DNA from: Candidatus Neomarinimicrobiota bacterium
GTDB taxonomy: Bacteria > Fidelibacterota > Marinisomatia > Marinisomatales > TCS55
Direction of reading: 5' to 3'
Assembly: GCA_018651745.1 (NCBI GenBank)
Contig: JABIDL010000030.1
Coordinates: 27,032 to 68,849, forward strand
DNA length: 41,818 nucleotides
This document shows positions 3,181-22,302 of this stretch, one piece after another. Each line of letters opens with the position of its first letter. Positions within the stretch are counted from its first letter, which is position 1. The position numbers were made by a program, and so were the translations under genes. The notes below the pieces were generated by a model. It searched no databases. It had not been told where the DNA came from and saw nothing but the letters and a program-made list of their open reading frames with translations.

Positions 3181-3182
3181 TC

Positions 3183-6100: not shown

Positions 6101-6791
6101 ATCGTATAATCAAATATCTGTTTGTAGCAATGGATGGATTTCTATGGGTACCACCACATTAAATTCATTTCGTAATTATCGTCTTCCCGGAACGGGGGGT
6201 CCATCTCCGATGATTGCCGCATTTTGGGACGATCTTGTACAAACAAACAGCGGGCGTATTTACAAATGGCATGACGCTATAAATCACCGATATATAGTTC
6301 AATGGTCTTCTGTAAGGACGTTTGATAAAAATGATACAGAAACATTTCAGGTTATTCTTAAAGATCCAACATATTACTACACACCCACTGGCGACGGTGA
6401 AATTATTATTCAATACAAAGTTTTTAATAATACATCTTCCGGTCAATATTCTTGGAATCAGGTTCATGGCAATTACGTTACCATTGGAATTGAAGATCAA
6501 ACAGGAACGGTTGGACTTGAATACACCTTTGACAATCAATATCCTGTGACGGCCATGCCGTTGGAGGATTCTACGGCCATTTTAATTACCACACGCGGTT
6601 CAGATATTTTGTCCAAAGGTGATATCAACTTCGATAAAAAAATTGATCTTTTTGATTTATTAGCTCTCATTGATTATATCCAATCTGATCAAAACGGGTC
6701 CATAAATCCTTATCTTGCTGATATTAACGGTGATGGAAATGTAAATTATATTGATATGATTAGTCTCATCAAAGAAGTGATGAATTACTGA
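3183..6791 (+). CDS. Secreted C25 (gingipain-like) protein with dockerin-like C terminus
   Basis: This 1202-residue exported protein starts with a signal peptide (about residues 1-22, IPIFSLCISLGLL). A C25 propeptide-like region follows to about residue 210, then a caspase-like C25 domain (about 230-570). The active-site Cys is present at C465 in CGTGSF. The usual G-H-G motif reads NYRGYIG (433-439), so the canonical His is absent. After it come a carboxypeptidase-regulatory-like domain, two or three beta domains with an NGxLNxGE signature, and a beta-sandwich also found in the C25 protein at 17861. The last 60 residues hold two calcium-loop repeats of dockerin type (DINFDKKIDLFDLL, DINGDGNVNYIDMI) instead of a T9SS sorting domain. 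It may be a surface protease or a catalytically dead relative; a PorU-like role is less likely. Confidence 0.8.
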   Translation: MINKNKLIPIFSLCISLGLLSARSGSGSVAVKTNAEFSVNRSELGNVLTFNLPDYAIQELTHLGSQFHQIAVDGSGSIATTEEPDFPSFTTFYAINPEKEYHVTVDILDSEFHSGVNMIPKGTWEDSDLDPVIPLVKKSSVYLSSQSYPEKMAVISEKMVMRDVHFVSVTVTPFQYNPVTQELEVVTSARVELTETGNTNVNMEGIRKPSRAFENLYNSFIVNYERRSMDYQKPSILYILSNNSSSYQSILDVLLDWRKEQGYVVNTANIADIGSSTGLIKNYISTAYTNWTNPPEFVVLVGDAGGSYNVPTYFESWSGYSGEGDHPYTTLEGNDQLSDVLIGRLSFSGTTELATIVNKIINYEKTPYMGENWLSRASLVGDTNPSGISTITTNEYIHEVLDRNGFEDVRTIYSGDFDAQMVSDINDGVAFTNYRGYIGMSNFGVNDINGLNNGFMLPFATFITCGTGSFSGSGSTVIEAMIRAGTPSQPKGGVAAIGTATIYTHTMFNNVMDMGFYSGIFIDHIHSAGGALMAGKLNLWKQYPSNPSDFTNIFSHWNNLMGDPSLRLWTGTPKSMDVTLKTSIKVGTNFYDILVEDDVHNPIQDARVVIYRANQLQEIQYSNENGLVTIPLGAITAGEVTVTALKDGFIPFQTDILVEDPPVNINVDLNDVIITDNGSGASIGNGNGLLNGGESIELSIPLSNLNSSDATGVYGLLSSANPRVTLSIDSVFYGNISGSGGPFPSDPFVFHLSANVREEENLQIRLLMVDDNNREWETDLQLTSTASEVVFSNMNISDNNDGILNPGETVNLNVVLKNSGSSTAFNVFGVLSTNSSLLTVEDGIGSWGSMSPSNANVMNTDGFSVSANPSAIPGSIVNLELTLTIGGGQQSTIMFPVQIGEAEVTDPLGPDEHGYYIYDSGDWLYANAPTFDWIEIDSRYGGEGTTVSLSDGGDNQDDVQVLTLPFMFRMYGQSYNQISVCSNGWISMGTTTLNSFRNYRLPGTGGPSPMIAAFWDDLVQTNSGRIYKWHDAINHRYIVQWSSVRTFDKNDTETFQVILKDPTYYYTPTGDGEIIIQYKVFNNTSSGQYSWNQVHGNYVTIGIEDQTGTVGLEYTFDNQYPVTAMPLEDSTAILITTRGSDILSKGDINFDKKIDLFDLLALIDYIQSDQNGSINPYLADINGDGNVNYIDMISLIKEVMNY

Positions 6792-6829
6792 TCGTATGAA
6801 CTTGATCTGATAACCATCAGTAATCTATC

Positions 6830-8008
6830 ATGTTTTCCCCATTGATCATTTTATCTATTATAACGCTTACTTTGATAATGATCGGGGGGGTCGAATATTT
6901 TCGCCACAAACAGGTCTTGGGGCTACTTCCACTTAGAATTCACATCAATGGAACACGAGGGAAATCAAGTGTAACGCGCCTTGTTGCTGCCGGGCTTCGG
7001 GCAGGTGGGTTAAAAACATACGCCAAAACTACCGGCACTGCCCCAAGAGTTATTGATCCCAAAGGAAGGGACAGGATTATTCATCGGTTAAGATCACCAT
7101 CTATCGGAGAACAAGTTCGTTTGTTAAAGTATTTCGCCCAAGATAAACCTGATGCTGTGGTGCTTGAATGCATGGCTGTCCAACCGCAATACCAGTGGAT
7201 TTCCGAACAAGAAATGGTTCGCTCACATATTGGCGTTATTACAAACGTTCGCCCGGACCATGTGGACGAAATGGGACAAACACTTTCTGATATTGCATCT
7301 TCTTTGAGCAATACAATTCCAAGACAAGGAGTATTTATTTCAGGAGAAGAATCTGTAATAACCATATTTGACGAAGTAGCACAGAAAAGGCAAACAAGGG
7401 TAGTTAAAGTGAACGAATCTGAAATTGGTGACGATATTTTGGACCAATTTTCTTATATGGAACACCCTCAAAATATCGCGTTGGCTTTGGCAGTTTGTGA
7501 ACAGGCAGGCATCGAACGAACCATTGCGCTTGATGGTATGGTAAATGTTAGCCCGGATTTAGGTGCATTGGTTGCATGGAAATTGGATTTTTCAGATAGA
7601 TCTGTTTCCTTTATCAATGGAATGGCTGCCAACGATCCTGTGTCAACTCTAACAATATGGAACTACATTTCCGGACGGTTTTCATGGAATGGTGAATCCT
7701 GTGTATTCCTGAACACTCGAGAGGATCGTAGAACAAGATCCCGCCAATTATTGAGTTTGGTTATGGAAGAAATCAAACCGGATTACTTTATCATTCGTGG
7801 CGAAAACCTTGAAAAAATGGTGAGTCATCTGAAGCATTATTCACCGAATACACATGTAATCATGATTCATTCTCAAGACACGGTCAAAGCTGTCTCAAAC
7901 GCATTTTCTAATCTTTCCGATGATTCTCTGATTTACGCTATGGGAAATCAAGTGGGCTTTGGGCAGGAATTGGTTGACCATATTAAAATATATCGACATC
8001 ATGGTTGA
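6830..8008 (+). CDS. pgsB: Poly-gamma-glutamate synthase subunit PgsB/CapB
   Basis: This membrane-anchored amide ligase polymerises glutamate through an ATP-driven acyl-phosphate step and is related to the Mur ligases. A hydrophobic N-terminal anchor (residues 3-20) is followed by the P-loop NGTRGKSSVTRL (40-51, Lys45), the YAKTTGTAPRVI stretch and a NVRPDHVDEMG segment, all typical of PgsB. The 392-residue length matches the Bacillus protein. pgsC begins 8 bases before its stop. A run of seven G bases lies at codons 19-21. It starts 38 bases after the C25 gene, with no clear terminator between, so it may belong to the upstream transcript. Confidence 0.93.
   Translation: MFSPLIILSIITLTLIMIGGVEYFRHKQVLGLLPLRIHINGTRGKSSVTRLVAAGLRAGGLKTYAKTTGTAPRVIDPKGRDRIIHRLRSPSIGEQVRLLKYFAQDKPDAVVLECMAVQPQYQWISEQEMVRSHIGVITNVRPDHVDEMGQTLSDIASSLSNTIPRQGVFISGEESVITIFDEVAQKRQTRVVKVNESEIGDDILDQFSYMEHPQNIALALAVCEQAGIERTIALDGMVNVSPDLGALVAWKLDFSDRSVSFINGMAANDPVSTLTIWNYISGRFSWNGESCVFLNTREDRRTRSRQLLSLVMEEIKPDYFIIRGENLEKMVSHLKHYSPNTHVIMIHSQDTVKAVSNAFSNLSDDSLIYAMGNQVGFGQELVDHIKIYRHHG
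6884..6890. repeat. G7 tract in pgsB
   Basis: Seven consecutive G bases lie at codons 19-21 of pgsB, near the start of the gene. Such runs are rare in this A+T-rich sequence and can slip during replication. Confidence 0.6.
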
Positions 8009-8444
8009 AATAACTATCGGGCTTGGAATCGTTTTAAGTTTGATTTTATCTGAGACACTCGGTGTTACAGCAGGTGGAATTATTGTCCCAGGCTATATCG
8101 CGCTGAATTTGCACCAGCCGCTTCAGGTAATTATAACTTTATTGGCTGCGGCACTGGTGTTGGGCATCATTCGCGGTTTGGGAAGATTTATGTTTATCTA
8201 TGGAAAGCGACGCCTTGTTTTAGCGCTTATCCTCGGATTTATGGTAGGATATGCTTCTCGTAATTATTTCTTTTCTCCGTTAGAAGATGTTTCTCTTGCT
8301 GTAATAGGGAATATCATTCCCGGCCTTATCGCAAGTTGGATGGATCGACAAGGAGTTATCCGAACTGTTTCAGTCATTTTAGTTACAGCCGTTTTGGTAA
8401 AACTGATAGTAATGCTTTTTTCAGGCGGAGTTCTGAATGCCTAA
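8001..8444 (+). CDS. pgsC: Poly-gamma-glutamate synthase subunit PgsC/CapC
   Basis: This is the integral membrane partner of PgsB in the polymerase complex. Its 147 residues form about four or five hydrophobic segments, beginning MVEITIGLGIVLSLILSE and containing the family-typical GVTAGGIIVPGYIAL. I chose the ATG at 8001 because it gives the standard PgsC N terminus. An in-frame upstream start at 7959 would add 14 residues and lie deep inside pgsB. The gene overlaps pgsB by 8 bases and the next gene by 8 bases, so the three are almost certainly translated together. Confidence 0.92.
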   Translation: MVEITIGLGIVLSLILSETLGVTAGGIIVPGYIALNLHQPLQVIITLLAAALVLGIIRGLGRFMFIYGKRRLVLALILGFMVGYASRNYFFSPLEDVSLAVIGNIIPGLIASWMDRQGVIRTVSVILVTAVLVKLIVMLFSGGVLNA

Positions 8445-9591
8445 TCCATCTAAATCCGGAATGTTTCGCCCAATCATCCAAATGACACGAACATTGACTA
8501 TAATGGCCGGAATAAGTGTCTTATGTTTTTGGTTTGCCTTCAATGCAAGAGTAGAAAAAGTGTCAGATAATTTTGATAGTAAAGTTCAAGCAGCCACCCG
8601 TATGCAGGAGGCAATGAATATCTTAAAGTTATTTCGGATGGAAAAGGGTGTATTTGTTGACATCGAAAATGATCCGAATGAAACCGGACTTGTAGGAGCT
8701 CAATTTAGTTTGATAACCACTGACGAAGGCGACCTTGATGCAAAGCTTACAACGCTTGATCCTAATTTTGCGGCGGCAATGATTGAATTATTATCCCGTG
8801 CCGGATTAACAACAGACGATACAGTGGCAGTTTTATTAACGGGGTCTATGCCCGGCGCCAACATGGCAGTTTTGATTGCGGCAGAAACCTTGGGAATTAA
8901 CACGGTAGCAATAACCTCATTAGGAGCATCTCAGTGGGGTGCAAATTATCCCGATTTCACATGGCTGGATATGGAAGCAATTCTCATTGAAAAAGGAATG
9001 TTAAAAAACCGTTCTATTGCAGCTTCCATTGGCGGCAGGAATGATCTCGGTCGGTTACTGAGTCCCAGAGGACGAAATCTAATTATTCAAAATATTGAAA
9101 AACATTCATTGCCACTTATTCGGGCAACGAGTTTGTCGGCCAATATCGATATGAGGATGGAAACACTTTTCAAATATGGTCCGAGCCGGGGATATGATTT
9201 AATGATAAATGTTGGAGGTGGCGTTGCGAGCTTGGGAACATCATTTAATTTAAAGCTTTTGAATCCGGGGTTAGTGACGCGTGCGAACATTGAACCAATC
9301 AGCCGACCAGACGGAATCGAAGGTGTAATGGTTCGATTCCTAAAATCTGGCGTGAATGCGCTTCATATATTAAATATTTCAGCATTGACAGACATGCTTC
9401 AAATGCCTTACGCTCCAATACCCAATCCTGAAATCGGGAAAGGTCCATTATATGCAATTGAACAATTTAATTTGACGATTACTTTTCTATGTTTTCTAAT
9501 TGTTGCCGGAATGGTATTTGCAGTTGGACACCATAGCCACAATCAAATATCCCAACGGATGAAAGAACATGAACCTGACAGCGTATTGTAA
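8437..9591 (+). CDS. pgsW: Poly-gamma-glutamate system protein (PgsW type)
   Basis: The 384-residue protein has one N-terminal membrane segment (about 17-34, TLTIMAGISVLCFWFAFNA), a large extracytoplasmic domain and a second membrane segment near the C terminus (about 348-367). The middle contains VAVLLTGSMPGANMAVL and INVGGGVASLGTS. It matches the family called 'poly-gamma-glutamate system protein', which accompanies PgsB/PgsC where the usual PgsA/CapA is absent. Its exact role is not established; it probably acts in polymer export or release. It overlaps pgsC by 8 bases and the next gene by 23. The family name is from memory, so the symbol is less certain than those of pgsB and pgsC. Confidence 0.78.
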   Translation: MPNPSKSGMFRPIIQMTRTLTIMAGISVLCFWFAFNARVEKVSDNFDSKVQAATRMQEAMNILKLFRMEKGVFVDIENDPNETGLVGAQFSLITTDEGDLDAKLTTLDPNFAAAMIELLSRAGLTTDDTVAVLLTGSMPGANMAVLIAAETLGINTVAITSLGASQWGANYPDFTWLDMEAILIEKGMLKNRSIAASIGGRNDLGRLLSPRGRNLIIQNIEKHSLPLIRATSLSANIDMRMETLFKYGPSRGYDLMINVGGGVASLGTSFNLKLLNPGLVTRANIEPISRPDGIEGVMVRFLKSGVNALHILNISALTDMLQMPYAPIPNPEIGKGPLYAIEQFNLTITFLCFLIVAGMVFAVGHHSHNQISQRMKEHEPDSVL

Positions 9592-10453
9592 ATTACTTCT
9601 TTTCTGCATTTTCTTCGGATCATTGGATGTCCTTTCTGCTGAACTATTGAAACCAGTCGAAGGGGGAGAAGAAAAAGAAATTTTAATTGTTAGCGGAAAT
9701 CGGAGATTGTATTATGTCGTTCGCTCTAAAGAATTGATGTACGAAGTTAGCGGACCGGTGAGATTAAAATTCATCACTCGCTTTCCTGCGATGCAACCAG
9801 GGAAAAGAACCCGCCATGCGTTTAAATATGATCTATTAATTGATGAAGCAGACACCATACATGTGAACCATAAATATCTCCGACAAAAAGGAATTCGATC
9901 CATTCAACATCCGAATCATCATTATACACATTCAGGGCATTATACAATCAATATCCCTGAAGGACGTCATTGGGTCAGAGTTTTGGTCCCTGAAAATCAA
10001 GATTATCCTGTTTTGATGCGAGCGGTTGCAAAAACATTTGAACTACCAAAAGGTGCGAAAAAAATTCTGACACCAATGGTTCACCAACTCAGCAAAATTG
10101 TTCAAGTTGGTAGTAAGGAAATTGAGTATTTTGAGCTTAAATATGGTGCACCTCTTCAAGTTGCAGTTAAAGGTCCAAAAATACTTAGGGTGACTAGCAG
10201 ACTATTATTTGAAAATTGGATGGGAGATGAAGAAGCTTACCGGCTTCAGTTGAAAGAGGGTAAAGACATTTTTGGAACATATTATTTTAGTACGGATCGA
10301 TCAGATAAATCATCGCTGAAATCGAATGATGAAATTGTTCCAGGAAAATGGCGTACTTGTGAAATCAAACTTTCGGAAGGAGACCATATTATAACGGTCA
10401 AGGTATTAGAAAAAGACAAAACAGTATTATTGAGATTTTTGGAATTCAATTGA
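9569..10453 (+). CDS. Secreted two-domain protein of unknown function
   Basis: The 294 residues start with a signal peptide (about 1-24, ending VLSA-E). The mature part contains the same beta-rich domain twice, at about 48-153 and 187-292. In both copies a GP motif (SGPVRL, KGPKIL) is followed by a charged middle, a P-E-G-x-H or S-E-G-D-H turn (EGRHWVRVLV, EGDHIITVKV) and a closing L(M/L)R. I do not recognise a named family. The gene starts 23 bases inside pgsW and its stop overlaps the start of the barrel gene (TGATG). It therefore sits between polymer synthesis and the outer membrane, and a periplasmic role in handling poly-gamma-glutamate is a reasonable but untested idea. Confidence 0.75.
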   Translation: MNLTAYCKLLLFCIFFGSLDVLSAELLKPVEGGEEKEILIVSGNRRLYYVVRSKELMYEVSGPVRLKFITRFPAMQPGKRTRHAFKYDLLIDEADTIHVNHKYLRQKGIRSIQHPNHHYTHSGHYTINIPEGRHWVRVLVPENQDYPVLMRAVAKTFELPKGAKKILTPMVHQLSKIVQVGSKEIEYFELKYGAPLQVAVKGPKILRVTSRLLFENWMGDEEAYRLQLKEGKDIFGTYYFSTDRSDKSSLKSNDEIVPGKWRTCEIKLSEGDHIITVKVLEKDKTVLLRFLEFN

Positions 10454-11496
10454 TGCGTTTTAATTATATCGGAATTATTTTTCTCGGTTTGGGATATCCT
10501 CAAGCACAAGCAACCATTTTAAACACACCGATATATTTCAACATCAAATTGACCAATGGATATGATTCCAATGTACTTCGTTTTTCTAGTGGAGAACAAG
10601 AATCTGCTGCGGTCGAACCGGACTTAATGGGTGGAATGTCCACATTTGATTCCCACTATTTACGTGGCGAATTGCTTGGAAAATCTATTTTCAATTTTAG
10701 CAGGAAACGCAATATAACTTTTTCGGGGAGAGCAGCATTAATCCGATATTCTCACAGTCAGGAAAAACAATACACAAGTGGAAAAATAGAATTGAAGTAC
10801 AGTTGGGGGCCGTATAGATCTTTTAAATATTCTATCCGTGATTTGTCTGATTATTATTTGCGGGACTATGTGAATAAAGATGTGACGAATACTCAATTTA
10901 TCGCCTGCATGTTTTCCGATAGAGATCAACAAATTGCTTTATCATATCCAATTGTTCGTCGAACTTGGATTTCACTTGCTGGCGGATACTTGCAGCGATA
11001 TTTTAATGGTGATTTTTCTGAATTTGATTTGGACATCCTATATCAGAAAGGTCGAATTTCATGGAAAACTCCATGGAATTTGACGATGAGTATAGAAGGG
11101 GAAATTGGAAAAGCAGATAATATCACTTTTGGAGAAACCGCCCGCGCGAGCGATTTGGATAGATCTTATCAATATTCCCAATTCTATTTTCCTCTTAAAT
11201 CATCTACTTCCCTTTGGTTATTGGACGAATTAGGAGGCGCTTTTCGACAGGAAATTCGTCAATATGCTGCTGAATCATTAGATGATCCACTTCACAGCGG
11301 AAGGGCGCACACCGATCGTAAATTAGATATATGGATGAAAAAAAATATCTCAGAATCGTTATCTGTTAAACTCATGGTAAGAAACCGCGAAAGAATTACA
11401 CACTCCAATTATAGTTGGGTCCAAAAATTAAAGTCTTTCAGACAAGTTCAGGTGTGGGTTGAAATTGGATGGAGGTCGGTGTATGACAAATATTAA
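10453..11496 (+). CDS. Probable outer-membrane beta-barrel protein
   Basis: The protein has 347 residues. A short signal peptide (IGIIFLGLGYPQAQA) is followed by a region of alternating polar and aromatic residues typical of outer-membrane barrels: IYFNIKLTNGYDSNVLRFS, then many short strands with Tyr, Trp and Phe at their ends. The final strand VQVWVEIGWRSVYDKY is not a perfect barrel terminus. I place the start at the ATG at 10453, which shares a base with the previous TGA; a TTG one codon earlier is the only alternative. No named family was recognised. Its position in the pgs run suggests an outer-membrane channel or anchor for the polymer, which is inference. Confidence 0.7.
   Translation: MRFNYIGIIFLGLGYPQAQATILNTPIYFNIKLTNGYDSNVLRFSSGEQESAAVEPDLMGGMSTFDSHYLRGELLGKSIFNFSRKRNITFSGRAALIRYSHSQEKQYTSGKIELKYSWGPYRSFKYSIRDLSDYYLRDYVNKDVTNTQFIACMFSDRDQQIALSYPIVRRTWISLAGGYLQRYFNGDFSEFDLDILYQKGRISWKTPWNLTMSIEGEIGKADNITFGETARASDLDRSYQYSQFYFPLKSSTSLWLLDELGGAFRQEIRQYAAESLDDPLHSGRAHTDRKLDIWMKKNISESLSVKLMVRNRERITHSNYSWVQKLKSFRQVQVWVEIGWRSVYDKY
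11471..11475 (+). promoter_or_regulatory. Ribosome-binding site that sets the lipoprotein start
   Basis: GGAGG lies 7 bases before the ATG at 11483, inside the end of the barrel gene. It is one of the few strong sites in the window and decides between this ATG and an upstream TTG. Confidence 0.65.
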
Positions 11497-12529
11497 ACAT
11501 TTCAAAATACTTGGTATTTTGGCAGTTTTCATGCTGCAGTCTTGTATGGAACCAGACTTAGACTCTGTTTGGGATATTGAGAGAATTACAACATTGAATA
11601 CCATTGGATATTGCCGATCAGCGGTTGTGGTGAATGACACCGCTTATGTTGCTGCCGGTCAGAACGGATTTCAAATTTGGGATATGTCCGCTTTTATAAA
11701 TATGGGGACCGATCCAACTCTTGTTGCAGCTATGGATTCTTATGCTACAGAACAGGATTTTGATGATATTACACAAGTAGAATATTCTCAAACTCACAGA
11801 GTTGTTTTTGCAGTTGAAAGCAACTCTCTTGTAAATATTATTGATAAAATTGGTAGTGATAGTTTGGATTGGGACGGTGCAAAAATGAGCGAGAAAACTC
11901 GCGAAATTCGTGTCATAGATGATAGTAGCGGATTTACGATTTATGCTGCAGATAACGATGACGGTCTCAAATGGAATTATTTCGAATTACAGAGTTGGGG
12001 AGAATGGTTTCATACGTCCGGGGAAGAAATTTGGGAAAATGGCAAACCGACGGGAATTGATATTGTTGGCAATCAACTTGCACTTACAACTGACCAAACC
12101 GGAGTAAGTTTATATCAGTTGAGCGATTTAAAAACGAACCCAGAGTTCATCAATTCGGTTGATACCCAAGGTAGCGCCGATAAAGTAACATTAACCAATA
12201 CCGGCTTATTTGTGGCGTCCGAAGAGGCTGGGGCTTATTTTATTCCATTTATGGATTTTCCCAGTAGTGCTAATAGAACACCGCCCGAACTGTTAAAAAC
12301 AACTCGATTTGCTGAAGACTTGTATGTTAAACATATATCAGTTTCTGGGAATACAGCAGTTTTATCGCTCGGATCCGGAGGCATAGCATTATACGATATT
12401 TCAAATTTGTTTGTCCCAATTTCGCGAGGGATTTTTGAAATTGGGTATGTGTATAAAACAGTCTTTGAATCTAGCTATATTCTTGCTTGCTCACGAGAAG
12501 GACTACAAGTTTTATCCATTAAGGAATAA
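11483..12529 (+). CDS. Lipoprotein with LVIVD-like beta-propeller repeats
   Basis: The 348-residue protein starts at the ATG at 11483, which has a GGAGG ribosome site at 11471-11475. This start gives a lipoprotein signal, with a hydrophobic stretch ending LQSC (Cys21). A TTG further upstream would bury it. The mature part carries propeller-type repeats of the LVIVD style, for example VVVNDTAYVAAGQNGFQIWD, GNQLALTTDQTGVSLYQLSD and GNTAVLSLGSGGIALYDISN. Such proteins usually sit on the outer membrane as binding scaffolds. It overlaps the barrel gene by 14 bases and ends 1 base before the next ATG. Confidence 0.75.
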   Translation: MTNIKHFKILGILAVFMLQSCMEPDLDSVWDIERITTLNTIGYCRSAVVVNDTAYVAAGQNGFQIWDMSAFINMGTDPTLVAAMDSYATEQDFDDITQVEYSQTHRVVFAVESNSLVNIIDKIGSDSLDWDGAKMSEKTREIRVIDDSSGFTIYAADNDDGLKWNYFELQSWGEWFHTSGEEIWENGKPTGIDIVGNQLALTTDQTGVSLYQLSDLKTNPEFINSVDTQGSADKVTLTNTGLFVASEEAGAYFIPFMDFPSSANRTPPELLKTTRFAEDLYVKHISVSGNTAVLSLGSGGIALYDISNLFVPISRGIFEIGYVYKTVFESSYILACSREGLQVLSIKE

Positions 12530-12530
12530 T

Positions 12531-15500
12531 ATGAACCACCCAATAAAACATACCAAAATTCTTGTTTCATCCATATTTCTAATAGTGTTTCTCTTTGGAC
12601 AAACTGATGCATGGCAAGCCAATGGAGTCGCAATTCGGCAAGGTGTTCATATTGAATGGCAAAAAACTACGTGTCCGGGTTCAGTTGGATCGGCTATTAT
12701 GATTTGGTCAGATACAAGAAATGGGAATCGAGATGTTTTTGCACAAAAAGTCAGTTTTACCGGTGATGTTTTTTGGGGAACAGGTGGCGTTCCGGTTACA
12801 GAATTGCCGGGAAGACAGGAAGATCCTGTTGCGATTGAGGACAATGCTGGCGGCGCGTTTATTGCATGGGTGGATTATCGTTTTGATAAAGAGGGAGACA
12901 TATATTTACAACATATTAATTCAGACGGAAATAGCGTTTTAGATAATTTGGGTATTGCAATATGTAATGTGGCTGGAAAACAGGGTTCCATCAATATGTG
13001 CACAGACAGTTCCGGAGGTGTTTTTATTACATGGCAAGACGGACGTAACGGTTTAGATGAAGATATTTATGGAACACATGTGGATTACAATAATAATGTT
13101 GGTCACCCGGGAATCGGTGTTGCAATTATAGAAGCATCCGGTACTCAAGGACCAAAAAGCATTGAATATGCAGGGGACGGTGATGCTTTTGTAGTTTGGT
13201 CCGATGCAAGAATCAGCGCAGAAAATTTGGATATTTACGCTCAAAGAATTCACCAAGATTTGTCTCTTCAATTTGATGTCGGTGGTTTACCGATAGCAAA
13301 TACGATGGAATTAGAAACACGCCCAAAAGTTACATTTATGTCAGGAGTAAAATCCTGCGTTGTTTGGCAGCAGGGATCAGGAATTACGGAAGTCGTTTAC
13401 CAAGTAGTTGACACATCCGGTTTAGTTTTGTCCAATGAAAAACCATTAACAAAAGACCCGGCGTCAAAGGCAGGTCCCCGTGTGAAGCGTGGAACCGGTG
13501 GTACAGTTTTCGCATCATGGGAAGATTACAGGTTTGACTCCACAGATCCGACTTATTTTATCCAAAAAATTAGCAACGATGGCTCTATTCTTTGGGATTC
13601 AGCAGGAGTGCCTCTGGATTCAATTTACAATACACAAGATGGCGCCAGATTTTCCGGTGATGAAAATGGTGGCGTAGTTTTCGTATGGGAACGAGGTACA
13701 TTTCCAGATAAGGATATTGTAGCCCAACATTTTGATTCGTTTGGAAATCGTATTTTGCCGGATTCCGGTCTTGCTATTTCTAACGCAAATGGGAATCAAG
13801 ATTCACCGATTATTACATCAGATGAAGTGGTTGGGCAATTTGTTATTTTTTCTGATGTAAGTGGCGGAAGTATTGATCTTAAAACTCAGTTAATTGATGA
13901 TATGAATACTATTGGTTTTTCTGAAAATGGAATCACAGTCATCGAAGGATTGGATGGGGATATAAATTATGTTCGAGCGGAAACTATGGAAAATGGACAA
14001 GTAGTGCTTGCTTGGGAGGATAATAGATATGGGAAAGTGTTGTTTGCGAACTATATTTTAGAGGAGGGCTCAGATTCTACCGAGCCAAATGGAAAACAAA
14101 TCGGCTTTGCCTCTTTCCATTCAGATCCCCTAATAAATGAACCGGTGTTTACCAATTCATACGGAAGCTTTTATACAGGTATTTACGATAAAAGTAGCGG
14201 TGTAGCATTATCTCGCGTTAACCGTTTGGATATGAATTTGATAAACCAATGGGATTCTACCGGTATATATCTTAATAATGGATCTGATCAGATTAACCTA
14301 CATTTAACACCCCATATATCTGGTGTTGCGTGTGTTTGGTCAGAAATTCGCAATGTATGGGATTATGATATATATTTTACTGTACTGGGTGATGATGGCA
14401 ATATCCTAGAAGCTGAAAACACCATTGCAAATGAATCAGTTAATGAATTTGTTGAGTTAGTTTTTCAGCTTCCTGATGGAGATTATATGGTTCTTTGGCA
14501 AGAGGGGCATTGGAATGCAGGCGTTCTAAAATATATTCGTCTAAATTCGTCCGGAACACCTGCGAGTGGGTGGGTATCGAGCGGAAAAGTATTATCACAC
14601 TCGGGAGATGCCAGTAATCTAATTGGAACAATGAACCATGATTCAACAGAAATTATTTTGGTTTGGGAAAACAGATTTTCAGCGACAAAAAAAGACATTT
14701 ATAGTCAAACCATTGATTTGGATGGGAATACACTTTTTGGTGAGGATCCCCTTATTTTGACAGAAGCTATAAATGATCAGAGATCTCCGTCTATTGCTCT
14801 AGATGAAAACACCGCTGCATTTGTTTCATGGGCAGATTTTCGAAATGGTGATGCGTTCTCAATCTATGGCCAGCGGATTGATGTGGAAAATCGATCCTTA
14901 ATTGATTCTAATATTCTTATTTGTTGTGACCAAGATACATTTTACCGAGACAATCCTGATGTGATAGCGTTTGGTGATGATTCATTTTTTATCACATGGG
15001 AGGATGAACGTGGTTCAGCGGTTGACGATCCTCTTCTTTCTGGTGGGTTGGATATTTATGGTGCAAAAGTAGTCAATGGTTTAGTTCAAAACCAAATTAT
15101 CATTGCTGCAGAATACCATGATCAGAAATCCCCAAAAATAATTCCCATCGGTGGGATCGATTCTAATGCTTGGTTTTTATATTGGCAAGATTATAGAAGT
15201 TCGGGAAAAGCTGATTTAGTGAATTTATATGGACAAGTGTTGTTAATTGATCCAAATATGAATATCAATTCACATACAGTTCCAATTGAGTTTAGAGTTG
15301 GTCCGGCATACCCTAACCCATTTAATGGGATAATTTCAATCCCGATCCAAACCCATTCTTCAGCACCAATCCGGATTTCTATTTACAATGTGCTTGGCCG
15401 TCAGGTTTATGATGCAATACTCATCCCAAATCATCCGGGCGAAATGACGTTTAATTGGACGGGGGAAGATATATTTGGTCGTGAAGTAGCAAGTGGAATT

Positions 15501-15563
15501 TATTTGTATCAGATTCAATCAAGAGATGCTGTTTTTAAAGGCAAGGTCTCTTTTTTAAAGTGA
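12531..15563 (+). CDS. Large secreted repeat protein with T9SS sorting domain
   Basis: The 1010 residues begin with a signal peptide (KILVSSIFLIVFLFGQTDA). The body is built from about a dozen repeats of 55-80 residues with a consensus like W-x-D-x-R followed by D-I-Y-x-Q; examples are IWSDTRNGNRDVFAQ, TWQDGRNGLDEDIYG, SWADFRNGDAFSIYGQ and YWQDYRSS. The pattern suggests beta-propeller blades. The last 85 residues are a T9SS type A sorting domain (AYPNPFNG, IYNVLGRQVYD, KGKVSFLK). I place the start at 12531, one base after the previous stop with AAGGA just upstream; a start at 12411 would overlap the previous gene and lose the signal peptide. The ligand or enzyme role is unknown. Confidence 0.82.
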   Translation: MNHPIKHTKILVSSIFLIVFLFGQTDAWQANGVAIRQGVHIEWQKTTCPGSVGSAIMIWSDTRNGNRDVFAQKVSFTGDVFWGTGGVPVTELPGRQEDPVAIEDNAGGAFIAWVDYRFDKEGDIYLQHINSDGNSVLDNLGIAICNVAGKQGSINMCTDSSGGVFITWQDGRNGLDEDIYGTHVDYNNNVGHPGIGVAIIEASGTQGPKSIEYAGDGDAFVVWSDARISAENLDIYAQRIHQDLSLQFDVGGLPIANTMELETRPKVTFMSGVKSCVVWQQGSGITEVVYQVVDTSGLVLSNEKPLTKDPASKAGPRVKRGTGGTVFASWEDYRFDSTDPTYFIQKISNDGSILWDSAGVPLDSIYNTQDGARFSGDENGGVVFVWERGTFPDKDIVAQHFDSFGNRILPDSGLAISNANGNQDSPIITSDEVVGQFVIFSDVSGGSIDLKTQLIDDMNTIGFSENGITVIEGLDGDINYVRAETMENGQVVLAWEDNRYGKVLFANYILEEGSDSTEPNGKQIGFASFHSDPLINEPVFTNSYGSFYTGIYDKSSGVALSRVNRLDMNLINQWDSTGIYLNNGSDQINLHLTPHISGVACVWSEIRNVWDYDIYFTVLGDDGNILEAENTIANESVNEFVELVFQLPDGDYMVLWQEGHWNAGVLKYIRLNSSGTPASGWVSSGKVLSHSGDASNLIGTMNHDSTEIILVWENRFSATKKDIYSQTIDLDGNTLFGEDPLILTEAINDQRSPSIALDENTAAFVSWADFRNGDAFSIYGQRIDVENRSLIDSNILICCDQDTFYRDNPDVIAFGDDSFFITWEDERGSAVDDPLLSGGLDIYGAKVVNGLVQNQIIIAAEYHDQKSPKIIPIGGIDSNAWFLYWQDYRSSGKADLVNLYGQVLLIDPNMNINSHTVPIEFRVGPAYPNPFNGIISIPIQTHSSAPIRISIYNVLGRQVYDAILIPNHPGEMTFNWTGEDIFGREVASGIYLYQIQSRDAVFKGKVSFLK

Positions 15564-15566
15564 TTT

Positions 15567-17882
15567 ATGGTAAACAAATTTATATTATGTCTGTTTGCCT
15601 TGAATTGTGGTCTTTTTGCCGAGCCGCTCGACCCGCGCTTTCACTCGTTTAATGAAATAAAATCCTTCCTCGATTCGCTCGATCAATTAGAACAATACGA
15701 GGATATATTTCGTGTGGATACGATTGGCTACTCCGGCGCCGAAACTTTGCCTATACTTGCGGTGAAAATTTCCGATAATGTTCACATAAAAGAAGATGAA
15801 CCAAGAGTATTATTTCTTGGACAATGCCATGCAGAAGAAATACTTGGTGTGGAGGCAGTATTGGAAATGATTTTGACACTACTGAGTCCACCCCCCCCTA
15901 TGGCAAGTCATGTTCAGATTTTGCGACAGGAAATTGAAACATGGATCATTCCCACCTACAATCCGGAAGGCTTAAATGTGGTTCATTCGGAAATGGATTT
16001 AAGCTATCGAAAAAACAAACGCGATTTCAGCCCGACCGGGCCGACTCCCAACGGTGTGTTTGATTTTGATCCGAGTATCGGTAACGATGTGGATGGTGTG
16101 GATTTAAACAGGAATTACGATTTCAATTGGTTTTTTGGTGATTCGTTTTTAGTTAATGATCCAACGGATTATGCTGCCCATTATGATTATTATCGTGGTC
16201 CTGAACCTTTTTCAGAACAGGAGACAAAGGCTATTCGTGATTTTGCATTGGAACAGGATTTTCTTTTTTCCATTGCGTGGCACAGTGCTAGATCGGGGCG
16301 TTATTCTGAATTGGTGATTTCATCTTGGAAATGGGCAGAAGGGAAAAATACCCCGGACAATAATGCTCAAAATACCATTGCCGATGCATTGGCTGGAAAC
16401 CTTCAAAAAGAGTACAGTGAAGATTTTTACCAGTCTGAGCAGAGTGTGTCACGTCGGGGGAATGCTCACGATTGGTTTTATACTGCAACGGGTTGTTTTC
16501 AATATCTTGTTGAGTGTGGGACTGCAAATCTGCAACCCGACAGCGCGTTGATTGAAGATACGATCCAGAGGTTAATCCCTGGAATGGTGTACTTAATGGA
16601 TCGAACGATTGGTTATCAAGAAGATGCCGCCCAAATCACCGGAATTGTAACGGACGAATTGGGAAATCCTTTTGAGGATGTGGAAATTATCATCAATGAA
16701 TTAAACGGTGGTGTTAACGATCCGCGCCTGACGGATGAATTTGGGCGGTATCGGCGTATTGTCACTGAAGGCACTTATCAGTTAACGGCGCAAAAATACG
16801 GGTATGAACCGGTAACAAATACGATCACCGCAAACAACAGTGGAACCACAATACTGGATTTTTCTTTGGATCCGCTAACCGAGGTTAACATCAATTTATC
16901 GATCGGGTTTTACCAACAATTATGGCACGATGAACATTTCTCATGGATAATGACTAATGATTTTTTTACAGATACAATCATTGTTGATGATGGTAGTAAT
17001 ACATTTGCGATGCCAAAGGGTAATTGGGACATTCAAACAGTTTATGACGACAGCTATTTTCCGTGGATAAGGAATCTTGAATTGGACTCAGACATGGAAA
17101 TCAACGTGAGTTTTAGGCAGAATGTAATTGACACAGTTTTAGGCTTCGGCGATTCGACGATGTGGAACCAAATTGGAGGTGACTGGACAATTGATTCGGG
17201 ATCTCTTAGATCTCAAGTTGGTTCTTTCTACAATAATGGAAACAGGGAAGATACCCTTGAAATTCGATCCCGATGGTTTGATATGACCGGAATGCAACAG
17301 ATTGCTTGTGTAATCAATCACCGCTACGAACTTGAATGGGACGTGGATTCCCTGTTTCTTACACTGGTGAACGGACAGGACAGCGTTTTAACAGAATGGT
17401 CCGCGACCGACCAGAATTGGCATGCATTTCGTACGGACAGAATTGTTGCGCGGGATACGTCTGGATTTGACTCAGTCCGAGTGCGGTTAAGGTTTTCACG
17501 GGATGCTTCTGTCAATTACCGCGGCTGGGAAATAGCATCATTGCGCATCTTGGGTTTGGATGACCCGTATCTGAATGTTACAGAATCAGGCCCTCAAATC
17601 CGTTCTTCTTTCTCGGTTTCCGACCCGTATCCAAATCCGTCATCCGGTATGATTTCCATTGATATGGAGCACATTCAATTTCCGTTGCAAGTAACTATAT
17701 TTAATCTGCTAGGACAGGAAATATTCAACCAATCGTTGAATCAGGGATTTAGGGAACAAATTACATGGCAATTGAATTTGTTTAATCAAATGGATGTACC
17801 AATAAGTTCAGGTGTATATTTCCTGCGCTTTTCTACCTCACACAAGGAGTTCATCAAAAAATGCGTTTACTTGCGGCCGTAA
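15567..17882 (+). CDS. Secreted M14 zinc carboxypeptidase with T9SS sorting domain
   Basis: This metallo-carboxypeptidase has 771 residues and a signal peptide (FILCLFALNCGLFA). The M14 zinc site is complete: H88-x-x-E91 in GQCHAEEILG and H239 in IAWHSARSG. The catalytic Glu is probably E316 in LVECGTANL. A carboxypeptidase-regulatory-like domain follows (about 355-430, ITGIVTDELGNPFEDVEI), then a beta domain, and a T9SS type A sorting domain ends the protein (SDPYPNPSSG, IFNLLGQEIF, KKCVYLRP). It starts 3 bases after the previous stop and overlaps the next gene by 22 bases. Substrate is unknown; because some M14-related enzymes cut gamma-glutamyl bonds, the neighbouring pgs genes make that worth testing. 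A run of eight C bases lies at 15891-15898. Confidence 0.9.
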   Translation: MVNKFILCLFALNCGLFAEPLDPRFHSFNEIKSFLDSLDQLEQYEDIFRVDTIGYSGAETLPILAVKISDNVHIKEDEPRVLFLGQCHAEEILGVEAVLEMILTLLSPPPPMASHVQILRQEIETWIIPTYNPEGLNVVHSEMDLSYRKNKRDFSPTGPTPNGVFDFDPSIGNDVDGVDLNRNYDFNWFFGDSFLVNDPTDYAAHYDYYRGPEPFSEQETKAIRDFALEQDFLFSIAWHSARSGRYSELVISSWKWAEGKNTPDNNAQNTIADALAGNLQKEYSEDFYQSEQSVSRRGNAHDWFYTATGCFQYLVECGTANLQPDSALIEDTIQRLIPGMVYLMDRTIGYQEDAAQITGIVTDELGNPFEDVEIIINELNGGVNDPRLTDEFGRYRRIVTEGTYQLTAQKYGYEPVTNTITANNSGTTILDFSLDPLTEVNINLSIGFYQQLWHDEHFSWIMTNDFFTDTIIVDDGSNTFAMPKGNWDIQTVYDDSYFPWIRNLELDSDMEINVSFRQNVIDTVLGFGDSTMWNQIGGDWTIDSGSLRSQVGSFYNNGNREDTLEIRSRWFDMTGMQQIACVINHRYELEWDVDSLFLTLVNGQDSVLTEWSATDQNWHAFRTDRIVARDTSGFDSVRVRLRFSRDASVNYRGWEIASLRILGLDDPYLNVTESGPQIRSSFSVSDPYPNPSSGMISIDMEHIQFPLQVTIFNLLGQEIFNQSLNQGFREQITWQLNLFNQMDVPISSGVYFLRFSTSHKEFIKKCVYLRP
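15891..15898. repeat. C8 tract in the M14 carboxypeptidase gene
   Basis: Eight consecutive C bases encode part of the Pro run SPPPPM near residue 110, just after the first zinc-site motif. A one-base slip would stop the protein early. Confidence 0.6.
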
Positions 17883-20800
17883 TTATATCCATCAATGTTT
17901 TATTTTCTGCGGATGCAAATTTTCGCGGAAAATCAAAAGCAGATTTAACCGGTCAAGCAATTCCGATGGCATTTAAATCATTAGTACAAGCGGAATACGG
18001 CCTTGCTGGGAATGACATCAATCCGATGCGCGGGACGTATATGATTATTGTTCCGGATGCTTGGGAATCGTACATCAGTATGTTTGCCTCTTTCAAAATG
18101 TCTCAGGGATTTGATGTGATTGTCAAGAAACAATCTGATGCTGGTAGTTCGGCTGATGAAATAAAAGCGACTATTTCCAATCATCTCGATCAAGATCCAC
18201 TCTTGGAATATGTACTACTAATTGGTGAAGTGAATGAAGGCTCAGGAAGTGTTATTCCTACTTTTTATTATGGTGATGCTAACGATGTTACGGATCAAAA
18301 ATACTCGCACTTGGTTTCGGATGATTTCATTCCTGATATTTTTATCGGACGCATGTCGATTACATCTGTAACAGAATTGATGGTTATAACACAAAAGACG
18401 ATCCAATACCATCGTGATCCCCTGGCGTTCAACCCAGATTGGTTGAACAAGGCGCTAGTTGTCGCCGGAAATTACAGCAATTCAATTCCGATTCCGACTA
18501 CACCCAAATGGACTTCCTACTGGCTACGGGATGAACTTTTAAACAACGGCTATGCTTCTGTAGATACGGTCTATTATCCCCCGACACAGCAAGGTGCTTC
18601 TCAAATATCTGCTTCAATTGATGCCGGCGTAGGCATTGTAAACTACCGCGGTTGGGGTGATGCAAATGGATGGCATTATCCCGAGTTTCATGTAAGCGAT
18701 GTGGCAGGGCTTAACAATGGCTGGATGACCCCGGTCTTCACCAGCTTTGTTTGCAATGCGAATGATTTTGGGAACCCTACAGTGCCAACTTGTTTTGGTG
18801 AATCGTTAATTCGTGCTGGAACACCCACAGTTCCGCAGGGTGGCGTTGCCATTATCGGTCCGTCAGATTTACATACGAGCACAAAATTCAATAATGTGAT
18901 AAATGCTTATATGTTTGATGCAATGTTTGACAACGGTGTTACGGAACTTGCTCCGGCAATGCTTGCAGGACAGTTAGGATTACTAACCGAATTCCCGCAT
19001 TTAGACGGACCGGGTGAAGGACAAGAATTTTATTTTCACGTGTACAATATCTTGGGCGATCCTTCGCTTTCCATGCACTTGGGTACGCCGGATGTATTTG
19101 CGATTGAAGCAGATTCTATCTGGTCGGCTGATGGATATATTTCATTAAACGTCACAAATGCCGCCGGGAATCCGGTACGGGATGCAGTTGTCGCAATCAT
19201 GGCGGATGATTCTCTATTAGCAAAAGGAATCACAAATTCCAGCGGACAATTTCAAGTTTCGGTGGATCCGGGAGATGCTGCAGCATTGGACATTTACGTG
19301 AATAAAAGTGGATTTATCCAGGGACATGAAGAAGTGTCGATTCATGAATCCGGACAGTCCATTGGATTTATTGGATACGTCTTGAGTGACAATGGAAACG
19401 GGCTTGTAGATCCTGGAGAAAAGGTGGCACTTTACCCAATATTAAAAAATCATTTGGATATCATGATTTCAGGTGGGACCGGAACTGTTTCATCTTCATC
19501 CGATATTGAACTTTTGGATTCCACCTTTTCTTTTACAGATATTCCGGAAGGAAGTGAAGTGACTGCTACAGATTCTATTGTTTTCCGTTATAAAGGAATG
19601 GGATCAATGACTGATCCATTGCTTTTATCATTTGAAGCAAATGGGGACGTTGGAAATACATTGGTTTCTGTAAGTGATCCAATTCTCAAAATTGACCTGA
19701 TTAATACCCCATCACAATCAACGGACGGATCTTTATCCATTAGTCCTGATTTAATATTCCACAATTTCAGTAATGCACAACTTGATACAATAAATATCGT
19801 GTTGCTCTCTTTGACGGATTCAATTTCCATTGATGTTTTTACTACAGAAGTAAAACCACCATTTACTTTGAATTCTTGGGACACCGCTTTTGTGGATTTG
19901 GAATATTACAATTTAAATATTGGTGATGTTTCCATAAGCAGTGAGTTATCTCTTGCGATAATATTAACGGATGCAGTTTGGAATAAATTGGATTCTATAC
20001 GCATTGATATTCCTATAAATCCATCAAATGAAAATCAGACAATGAACCCATCGGATTACGGTTATTGGTCCTACGATGATATTGATTCAGGTTATACACA
20101 GACACCTGAATTCAACTGGGTTGAGCTTGATCCTGCTCACGGGGGTTCCGGCGGAACGGAATATGTTTTGGACGACGACGATCACATCCGCGTGGACCTG
20201 CCGTTTGCATTCCAATATTTTGGGAATTCCTACGATCAGATTACCATCAGTTCCAACGGCTGGACATCCTTCGAAACAACGCCAGTGGATTATTTCTGGA
20301 ATTTTTCGATTCCCATGGCGATGGGTCCGAATGCCATGCTTGCGCCGTTCTGGGATGACCTTGAAACCATTGACACGGACGGAGACGACGCAATTGATGT
20401 GTGGATAAATGTTTTCACAAGATATGACGAATTGGAAGGCCGCTTCATCATTGAATGGTCTCGCGCACTGAACGGTTACGACGAGGCGACAGAAGAGACA
20501 TTTGAAATTATTTTGTATTCCCAGTCCGCCATACCGACAGCAACCGGCGACGGCGTGATTGAATTTCAGTATTACAAGATAGACAATGTGGATGTGACTA
20601 AGAATTATTCCACGGTCGGGATCGAGTCGCCGGACAAGAATGACGGACTTCAAATCACTTTCAATAATACATACGCCGCCGGCGCGGCAGCTTTGGACAG
20701 CGGGCGGGTGATTCGATTTACAACTGAGGCGCCGGAAAATTATGTGCCGTCCTTGAGCGTTGAGGATGACATTATTCCAAGCGGATTCCAACTGCATCCC

Positions 20801-21055
20801 GTATTTCCCAATCCATTCAATCCTTCCACAACCATTCGTTTTCAAATCCCTGTAGGGGCGAGATATATCTCGCCCCTACAATTACGGGTTTACGATATAA
20901 CCGGAAGATTGGTGGAAACATTGGTGGATGGAAACATGCAACCGGGAAGGCACGAAATTGTTTGGAATGCCAAACAACACAGCAGCGGAATGTATTTTGT
21001 AGAATTAGGGTCAGGGTCATTCCGCCAGACGCAAAAAATGATTCTCCTGAAATAG
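17861..21055 (+). CDS. Secreted C25 (gingipain-like) protein with T9SS sorting domain
   Basis: The 1064 residues start with a signal peptide (MRLLAAVIISINVLFSADA). There is almost no propeptide: the C25 caspase-like domain begins near residue 60 (GTYMIIVPDAWESY). The active-site Cys is C298 in FVCNANDFG, but the residue 33 positions before it, where gingipain R has His, is W265 in NYRGWGD. Later domains follow the order in the protein at 3183: a regulatory-like beta domain, an NGNGLVDPGE domain, a beta-sandwich (WVELDPAHGGSGG, SSNGWTSF) and then a T9SS sorting domain (VFPNPFNPSTTIRFQIP, RVYDITGRLVETL, QKMILLK). Ten residues inside that domain (from VGARYISP) come from an exact palindrome at 20851-20880. 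The start overlaps the M14 gene by 22 bases. Confidence 0.85.
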   Translation: MRLLAAVIISINVLFSADANFRGKSKADLTGQAIPMAFKSLVQAEYGLAGNDINPMRGTYMIIVPDAWESYISMFASFKMSQGFDVIVKKQSDAGSSADEIKATISNHLDQDPLLEYVLLIGEVNEGSGSVIPTFYYGDANDVTDQKYSHLVSDDFIPDIFIGRMSITSVTELMVITQKTIQYHRDPLAFNPDWLNKALVVAGNYSNSIPIPTTPKWTSYWLRDELLNNGYASVDTVYYPPTQQGASQISASIDAGVGIVNYRGWGDANGWHYPEFHVSDVAGLNNGWMTPVFTSFVCNANDFGNPTVPTCFGESLIRAGTPTVPQGGVAIIGPSDLHTSTKFNNVINAYMFDAMFDNGVTELAPAMLAGQLGLLTEFPHLDGPGEGQEFYFHVYNILGDPSLSMHLGTPDVFAIEADSIWSADGYISLNVTNAAGNPVRDAVVAIMADDSLLAKGITNSSGQFQVSVDPGDAAALDIYVNKSGFIQGHEEVSIHESGQSIGFIGYVLSDNGNGLVDPGEKVALYPILKNHLDIMISGGTGTVSSSSDIELLDSTFSFTDIPEGSEVTATDSIVFRYKGMGSMTDPLLLSFEANGDVGNTLVSVSDPILKIDLINTPSQSTDGSLSISPDLIFHNFSNAQLDTINIVLLSLTDSISIDVFTTEVKPPFTLNSWDTAFVDLEYYNLNIGDVSISSELSLAIILTDAVWNKLDSIRIDIPINPSNENQTMNPSDYGYWSYDDIDSGYTQTPEFNWVELDPAHGGSGGTEYVLDDDDHIRVDLPFAFQYFGNSYDQITISSNGWTSFETTPVDYFWNFSIPMAMGPNAMLAPFWDDLETIDTDGDDAIDVWINVFTRYDELEGRFIIEWSRALNGYDEATEETFEIILYSQSAIPTATGDGVIEFQYYKIDNVDVTKNYSTVGIESPDKNDGLQITFNNTYAAGAAALDSGRVIRFTTEAPENYVPSLSVEDDIIPSGFQLHPVFPNPFNPSTTIRFQIPVGARYISPLQLRVYDITGRLVETLVDGNMQPGRHEIVWNAKQHSSGMYFVELGSGSFRQTQKMILLK
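20851..20880. repeat. Exact 30-base palindrome inside a coding region
   Basis: The two 15-base halves are exact reverse complements (left half TGTAGGGGCGAGATA). The repeat is read in frame as ten codons within the T9SS sorting domain of the C25 protein, between the FQIP strand and the LRVYDITG strand, where this domain normally has a short turn. Thirty bases is exactly ten codons, so frame is kept. It looks like a small dispersed palindromic unit that landed in a tolerant loop, comparable in principle to the Rickettsia palindromic elements. Confidence 0.85.
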
Positions 21056-21373: not shown

Positions 21374-21445
21374 TGTCACTCTGATCCTGACGAAGGGTAA
21401 CATAATATCAATTCCTAATCATGCTTCGTCTAGCTCAGCATGACA
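21374..21445. repeat. Imperfect palindromic repeat between grxC and a lipoprotein gene
   Basis: The left arm at 21374-21395 and the right arm at 21424-21445 are inverted copies matching at 17 of 22 positions, with a 28-base A+T-rich centre. Read on the minus strand, the right arm starts TGTCATGCTGAGCTAGACG. That shares 17 of 19 bases with the core of the repeat at 40126, so the two may belong to one dispersed family. The arm also explains a spurious upstream ATG at 21421 in frame with the next gene. Confidence 0.65.
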
Positions 21446-21456
21446 ATTATTCTTTC

Positions 21457-22302
21457 ATGAGGTTTTTCTCATTTTCATTGCTTCTCTTTGTCTTTATTTC
21501 CTGTGCTGGACATAAATCAACAATCCGGAAATATCAGGATGTCCAAGCCATGACCTCCCAAGTGTTGAATTATCGGGAAAAGATTCGCGATAATGGAAAT
21601 GATTTAATAGCGCTTAAAGGAGCATTGGAACCCACACTTACTTTTTCACTTCGTAAAGATTTTGAACTATATGATGAACTTTCATCCGCTCTCACAGCTA
21701 TGGATGAAACACACAACTTTATTCTTGGGAAAGTTCAGATTCAACGCAAAACAGTTTCGATGATTCGAAAAGACTCGAAAGTTTCTTTAGATACAGAAAT
21801 CCCGGATACTGAAACGACATACGGCGATAATTTTTCAAAACTGGATTCTCTAATAAATGATGCTTTCAATAAACTTAATCGGGACCGAGAAAGGCTCATT
21901 AAAGCGTTGAAAAAAAAGAATAAAAATCTCATCTTTATTTCGAATCAATTGCTCAAATGGAAGCCAACTATTTTAAAACTTCAGGAAAAACGGAAAAATT
22001 TTCAACCACGTATTGATAAATTAACTGAGTCTATTGCGATTGAAATCACGTTTGATAAGGCAGGTGAATCTGTTGAACTTATTTCTCAAAAGACGGCTAA
22101 AGTTGATGAAGTAACCCAACGCATGATAAAAATTGACAGATATTTTTCTGCAATGGAATCTATTGCAAAAAAGGAAGCTGGCGGGAATGTTTATCTCATT
22201 GGGATAGGTAGTAAGAAAATGAAATACGAACGAAGGTATCATCAATTTGTCGAAGAATACAGAGACCACCTGAAATCTCTCAATATTTTGCTACCGGATT
22301 AA
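21457..22302 (+). CDS. Coiled-coil lipoprotein of unknown function
   Basis: I place the start at 21457, giving 281 residues with a lipoprotein signal (MRFFSFSLLLFVFISC, Cys16). An ATG 12 codons upstream lies within a palindromic repeat and would add a polar stretch before the signal. The mature protein is charged and helical (TSQVLNYREKIRDN, KLNRDRERLIKALKKK, LKLQEKRKNFQPRIDKL), consistent with long coiled coils in the periplasm. No family is recognised. Its stop directly abuts the stop of the convergent minus-strand gene, with no room for a separate terminator. Confidence 0.65.
   Translation: MRFFSFSLLLFVFISCAGHKSTIRKYQDVQAMTSQVLNYREKIRDNGNDLIALKGALEPTLTFSLRKDFELYDELSSALTAMDETHNFILGKVQIQRKTVSMIRKDSKVSLDTEIPDTETTYGDNFSKLDSLINDAFNKLNRDRERLIKALKKKNKNLIFISNQLLKWKPTILKLQEKRKNFQPRIDKLTESIAIEITFDKAGESVELISQKTAKVDEVTQRMIKIDRYFSAMESIAKKEAGGNVYLIGIGSKKMKYERRYHQFVEEYRDHLKSLNILLPD

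Follow-up and report, generated by a model that had tools for sequence, protein, structure and literature searches.

How does a bacterium with two membranes bring poly-gamma-glutamate (PGA) to its surface? PGA capsules are predicted in most phyla, many diderm ones among them, from the pair CapB and CapC alone, and crossing the outer membrane of a diderm is said to take one or more further proteins, none of which the PGA model names (PMC5542703). Fusobacterium nucleatum is given as the first Gram-negative bacterium shown to make the polymer (Candela 2009, cited in PMC4497714 and PMC3815933), and Cloacimonadota genomes have been reported to carry CapBC together with unspecified transport proteins (PMC8542988). 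The question is posed concretely by a 41,818-nucleotide stretch of DNA (hereafter the window, to which all positions refer unless a locus is named) from a Candidatus Neomarinimicrobiota bacterium of the phylum Marinimicrobia/Fidelibacterota (assembly GCA_018651745.1, contig JABIDL010000030.1). Here the genes pgsB, pgsC and pgsW run directly into genes for an exported basic protein that we call X294, an outer-membrane beta-barrel and a lipoprotein (Table 1). We consider it probable that these six genes, pgsB-pgsC-pgsW-X294-barrel-lipoprotein, encode a synthase-dependent PGA secretion machine of diderms.

Linkage of X294 and the barrel to pgsBCW

In a sample of 245 genomes from the phylum, profile searches found PgsW (TIGR04332) in 100, the barrel in 97 and X294 in 95. 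Of 60 loci fetched around pgsW, 56 have X294, the barrel or both downstream of it, the usual order being C25-pgsB-pgsC-pgsW-X294-barrel-lipoprotein, where C25 denotes a C25-family protein discussed below. Where the contig extends far enough, 55 of 56 loci have X294 and all 54 have the barrel; a profile search places the lipoprotein in the same slot in 50 of 50 loci of the phylum and in 27 of 34 of the wider set described below. Median junctions, taken from the longest open reading frame (ORF) starts, are −8 bases for pgsB/pgsC, −14 for pgsC/pgsW, −23 for pgsW/X294, −1 for X294/barrel and −14 for barrel/lipoprotein. The gene arrangement is not a product of chance. Nearly all X294 matches (94/98) and most barrel matches (95/105) share the strand of pgsW and are no more than 2.5 kb away from it, and every one of the remainder is on a contig that ends there, two such contigs still holding the tail of pgsW. 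Genomes without PgsW lack both X294 and the barrel, except G233, in which pgsW is cut at a contig end, and G145, which has a barrel fragment at a contig end. Across 84 genera of the phylum, presence and absence of PgsW, X294 and the barrel coincide. One locus (L059, positions 6988-8229) has a 413-residue gene inserted on the opposite strand between barrel and lipoprotein.

A scan for PgsW in wider contigs gave 80 loci, 48 of them with X294 or part of it and 38 with a recognised barrel beside pgsW. The carriers are labelled Bacteroidota, Ignavibacteriota, Chlorobiota, Calditrichota, Fermentibacterota, Eisenbacteria and Latescibacterota, with one Fibrobacter, and some labels of metagenome-assembled genomes may be wrong. 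This is probably so for one of the near-identical module loci L143 and L150, labelled Fibrobacter and Latescibacterota. Among 42 of these carriers searched as whole genomes, X294 is single-copy in 40, the other two having only weak extra matches. A Fermentibacterota sample comprised three genomes, all already known as carriers. An independent sample of 345 Bacteroidota genomes, drawn evenly, contained PgsW in 14 genomes, X294 in 7 and a full-length barrel in exactly those 7, each time contiguous with pgsW, and five of these seven carriers lie outside the profile set. Seven further barrel matches in this sample were weak and partial (E values 4e-6 to 1e-4) and fell in unrelated long frames. Whether homologues of the genes at 9569 and 10453 are found away from pgsBC had been set beforehand as a check on the sequence-only reading of this DNA, and in both samples, of 245 and 345 genomes, the linkage came through. 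It is near-obligate over about ten phyla.

Tight operons are inherited together, and the close spacing could thus suggest that X294, the barrel and the lipoprotein are passengers that merely share an operon. We regard this as extremely improbable given the coincident presence and absence over the phylum's genera and again in the independent Bacteroidota sample. Furthermore, in locus L141 (positions 4719-10782) the order is reshuffled to barrel-lipoprotein-pgsB-pgsC-pgsW-X294 with no gene separated, so the module stays together after rearrangement, and the genes of the same operon whose products carry type IX secretion system (T9SS) tails did not travel to other phyla.

The synthase genes themselves are clear: equivalogs of PgsB and PgsC stand side by side in the window, both well above curated cut-offs (Table 1). 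These scores argue against a different reading, which we hold to be distinctly improbable, in which another amide-linked anionic polymer is exported or surface proteins are glutamylated. PgsB, an amide ligase, may have another substrate here, most of its homologues from genera other than Bacillus owe their names to similarity alone, and the neighbouring T9SS proteins would be possible acceptors. PgsA/CapA (PF09587) was searched for in the genome of the window, which is 95.8% complete, and gave no match there, the Bacillus subtilis control being positive; PgsA/CapA is counted as an accessory and not a defining part of the PGA system (PMC5542703). PgsW has hydrophobic segments at both termini, judged by eye.

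A tree of 140 PgsW proteins places the module carriers in one group, except L085 and L169, whose rows end at contig breaks, and none of 500 label shuffles was as clustered as the observed tree. A branch of short PgsW proteins (L102-L122, mostly 348-363 residues) has neither X294 nor the barrel. Upstream of pgsB in this short type lies a gamma-glutamyltranspeptidase gene, seen both in Bacteroidales (L107) and in the Marinimicrobia locus L102, and the Bacteroidales loci have SusC-like and SusD-like genes 3' of pgsW. Their neighbours (for example L107, positions 3959-17523) also include an Asp/Glu racemase-like gene and a histidine kinase. CapD of Bacillus anthracis is a member of the gamma-glutamyltranspeptidase family and fixes the polymer to the wall; by analogy, the short PgsW type may serve anchoring and the long type export. 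At locus L071 (positions 3386-4771; genomes G173-G175) PgsW is enlarged to 461 residues, and in these genomes it may have taken over the role of X294.

Predicted folds, charge and a candidate secretion path

Neither X294 nor the barrel nor the lipoprotein matched a curated family above cut-off in NCBIfam or Pfam, and a sequence search of solved structures for relatives of X294, the barrel and PgsW returned chance matches only. Structure prediction bore out the two-domain protein and the barrel of the sequence-only reading as a tandem beta-sandwich and a 14-stranded barrel. The AlphaFold model of X294 has a mean predicted local distance difference test score (pLDDT) of 91.2 and a predicted template modelling score (pTM) of 0.63, so that the arrangement of its two domains is unsure. 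Its top structural matches are carbohydrate-binding modules (CBM35, 2w1w: Z 9.7 over 113 residues, 3.1 Å), and, on a par with them, BcsB of cellulose synthase in its periplasmic portion (5eiy: Z 9.3, 105 residues, 2.8 Å). The two halves are homologous to each other (hhalign profile comparison, 99.7%), and the pairs Y48/R71 and Y187/R211, at equivalent sites in both domains, are invariant or nearly so. Mature X294 of the window has a pI of 9.49; the median is 9.63 within the phylum and 9.78 outside, with values above 8 in 32 of 33 and 20 of 22 proteins. The neighbouring lipoprotein, REP1050, M14 and C25 proteins have pI values of about 4.2. Judged by its predicted fold, X294 is a candidate periplasmic polyanion-binding subunit.

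The barrel model (pLDDT 89.6, pTM 0.83) is closest in fold to CymA (Z 23.8, 287 residues, 3.4 Å) and then to OmpG (Z 21.5), and a profile search of Protein Data Bank sequences with the barrel found no porin. Among residues that strand alternation places facing inward, 24 are Lys or Arg and 13 are Asp or Glu. R270 is invariant, and R138, R313, R315 and K106, at presumed lumen positions, are nearly so or exchanged between Lys and Arg, a pattern that suggests a conserved basic lumen. In locus L163 (positions 2271-4826) an X294-like domain precedes the barrel in a single frame of 851 residues. The frame also continues from X294 and has an internal signal-peptide-like stretch, so there may be two genes, and we counted only the domain-barrel joint; the arrangement, which hints at a physical partnership, may be a true fusion or two adjacent genes read as one.

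From computed gene order, linkage, folds and charge, and from the absence of PgsA/CapA, we infer an export function, the identity of the polymer, the direction of transport and the roles of the subunits as follows. PgsB and PgsC would polymerise the chain and move it over the inner membrane, with PgsW in place of PgsA/CapA as the membrane-anchored periplasmic part. Basic X294 would take up the polyanion in the periplasm and guide it to the 14-stranded barrel, whose basic lumen would be the exit through the outer membrane, and the lipoprotein would hold or cap either the barrel or the polymer as it emerges. The REP1050, M14 and C25 proteins exported by the T9SS would add surface attachment or trimming in Marinimicrobia. 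The sequence-only reading had named the genes at 9569, 10453 and 11483 as candidates for exporting or anchoring the product of pgsBC, and linkage, folds and charge fit such a path for a polyanion; the part that did not last is the extension of the unit to REP1050, M14 and C25b, which lie outside the core. On balance we lean towards a previously undescribed PGA outer-membrane pathway across the Fibrobacterota-Chlorobiota-Bacteroidota (FCB) group, with a basic tandem-sandwich chaperone, a 14-stranded exit barrel and a capping lipoprotein, as an alternative to the CapD-like type that goes with the other PgsW clade.

The same proteins could instead retain the polymer: X294 and the lipoprotein would keep it periplasmic or bound to the outer membrane, and a different solute would use the barrel. 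X294 does resemble binding modules and not transporters, the lipoprotein and the T9SS proteins are surface or adhesin-like, and the CapD-like gamma-glutamyltranspeptidase of the short PgsW cluster suggests that anchoring is a normal companion function. This is nonetheless unlikely in our estimate: linkage to pgsW is as tight for the barrel as for X294, and the basic lumen, as deduced here, would have no reason to be conserved if the barrel carried something else.

Several points weigh against secretion by the module. The probabilities of co-occurrence, a Fisher p of about 1e-59 in the phylum and a hypergeometric 2e-8 for the five Bacteroidota carriers outside the profile set, are not corrected for phylogeny. 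Loci L160, L161 and L167 carry X294 without a recognised barrel, ORFs of 272 and 319 residues filling the slot in L160 and L161, and genomes G173-G175 keep a barrel with no X294 found. The nearest solved folds, CymA and OmpG, are passive porins, and the polysaccharide secretin PgaA fits less well (Z 14.2). The charge of the lumen was deduced from strand alternation and not from coordinates, without a control porin, and with a median pI of 7.5 the barrels of other phyla are on the whole less basic. Finally, the short PgsW type lacks the module, and PgsBCW can thus manage without it, at least with other partners. The module is at present the leading candidate for the step that takes secreted polyglutamate across the outer membrane.

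The gene chain in the window and its lineage-specific part

The chain had been described from its sequence as unbroken from pgsB to C25b, and every overlap and gap was reproduced exactly from the gene coordinates: overlaps of 8 bases at pgsB/pgsC, 8 at pgsC/pgsW, 23 at pgsW/X294 and 1 at X294/barrel (4 if the barrel begins at an alternative TTG at 10450), 14 at barrel/lipoprotein, gaps of 1 and 3 at lipoprotein/REP1050 and REP1050/M14, and an overlap of 22 at M14/C25b. The annotations of pgsB, pgsC, PgsW, the T9SS tails, M14 and C25 likewise hold under curated cut-offs and Pfam. The chain probably starts further upstream than pgsB, since the C25-family gene C25a ends 38 bases before it and is kept at that place in relatives. 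Directly upstream of C25a, at 1-2 base spacing, lie genes for a type IV pilus/type II secretion-like ATPase and inner-membrane protein (PilB/PilC-like; 209-3180), and the transcript may start there or beyond. Scans for consensus promoters (55 found, 47 expected) and terminators (18 found, 13 expected) were near chance and hence cannot define the transcript. 3' of C25b is a gene for a small basic putative lipoprotein (SCAG; 21421-22302), a fragment of a relative of which follows the same chain in L097, and directly upstream of alaS is one for an exported protein, probably of the outer membrane, whose middle part has D-rich, calcium-binding-like repeats (24960-26537).

Table 1. Genes of the chain, with window positions and the basis of each assignment.
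Gene and product	Position	Strand	Basis or feature
C25a, upstream secreted C25-family protein	3183..6791	+	gingipain-like propeptide, dockerin-type C-terminus
pgsB, poly-gamma-glutamate synthase, Mur-ligase-like amide ligase	6830..8008	+	TIGR04012, 419 bits (cut-off 222.7)
pgsC, membrane subunit	8001..8444	+	TIGR04011, 119 bits (cut-off 96.5); PF14102
pgsW, PgsW-type poly-gamma-glutamate system protein, long type, 384 aa	8437..9591	+	TIGR04332, 293.7 bits (cut-off 100)
X294, exported basic protein, two homologous CBM/BcsB-like beta-sandwich domains	9569..10453	+	predicted fold
Outer-membrane beta-barrel, 14 strands, candidate exit channel	10453..11496	+	predicted fold
Lipoprotein, surface or periplasmic, lipobox LQSC, LVIVD/propeller-like, acidic	11483..12529	+	
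REP1050, T9SS-tailed repeat protein, lineage-specific extension	12531..15563	+	
M14 zinc carboxypeptidase, T9SS-tailed, lineage-specific extension	15567..17882	+	Pfam
C25b, T9SS-tailed C25-family protein, lineage-specific extension	17861..21055	+	Pfam

We had entertained the whole chain to 21055 as one functional module and dropped this, as REP1050, M14 and C25b do not accompany the module in other phyla. REP1050 is present in 45 of 46 loci of the phylum and in 1 of 24 elsewhere, that single outside match being itself Marinimicrobia, and M14 in 35 of 43 and 0 of 22. Kept inside the phylum only, the three genes are a lineage-specific extension outside the core.

All 39 aligned M14 proteins have the HxxE...H zinc ligands, the Arg of DLNRN and the catalytic Glu. 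A conserved basic residue at position 296 (Arg in 35 of 40) lies close to where the specificity pocket is expected; that this could suit glutamate ends is a guess, and trimming of the polymer by M14 is possible. An M14 carboxypeptidase with intact catalytic residues, in one chain with a barrel whose best structural match, CymA, imports cyclodextrins, could point to uptake, the barrel bringing in gamma-glutamyl oligomers freed by the surface M14 and C25 proteins. We give recycling of this kind a low probability. Other phyla carry the module without M14, the genes to which the module is linked are those of a polymerase and not of oligomer transport or catabolism, and the C25 protein upstream is without the catalytic His of gingipain.

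This upstream C25 gene, a conserved and probable pseudo-peptidase gene tied to pgsBCW, precedes pgsB in 44 of 50 loci of the phylum and in 26 of 39 of the wider set. C25a aligns with gingipain R over propeptide and catalytic domain, and the catalytic Cys is kept in 77 of 78 aligned proteins. The position of the catalytic His is Tyr in the window's C25a and Tyr or Glu in most relatives, often Glu in other phyla. With this residue replaced, C25a is probably a binding or structural protein and not a working gingipain-like protease. PorU as an identity for the C25 genes was rejected, with 42-46 bits against a cut-off of 420 and the real PorU on another contig.

Relation to known systems

A literature search, with subscription papers and preprints outside its scope, found no paper describing the module or an outer-membrane step for polyglutamate, and the module is apparently undescribed. 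It supplies specific, testable candidates for the step left unnamed in the PGA model and, if the proposal is true, would be the first defined PGA route through the outer membrane. Three protein families are now defined and tied to pgsBCW, with which annotators can separate two PgsW-based systems, and the module may be a sign that abundant marine bacteria not yet in culture coat their envelopes.

Compared with the PgsBCA(E) and CapBCA(DE) systems of Bacillus, the window has clear members of PgsB and PgsC but PgsW, X294, the barrel and the lipoprotein instead of PgsA/CapA, and the described operons are without an outer-membrane part. TIGR04332, of which the third gene is a strong member, is a named protein family; its members here split into a long type with X294 and barrel and a short type with gamma-glutamyltranspeptidase, joined in Bacteroidota by SusC/D. 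The exporters AlgE/AlgK, PgaA and BcsB/BcsC share with the proposed machine the logic of an inner-membrane synthase, a periplasmic binding domain, for which the BcsB-like sandwich of X294 is a candidate, an outer-membrane barrel and a lipoprotein in one operon, whereas the polymer of the module would be an amide and not a polysaccharide, its barrel has 14 predicted strands and there is no sequence similarity. Searches of Pfam and NCBIfam found no tetratricopeptide repeat (TPR) family, and hence no TPR scaffold, in X294, the barrel or the lipoprotein. Gingipain R shares the propeptide and catalytic domain with C25a, which differs in its replaced His. The monomeric porins CymA and OmpG have the fold and strand number predicted for the barrel of the module, which differs from them in its sequence (7-8% identity) and in its strict linkage to pgsBCW.

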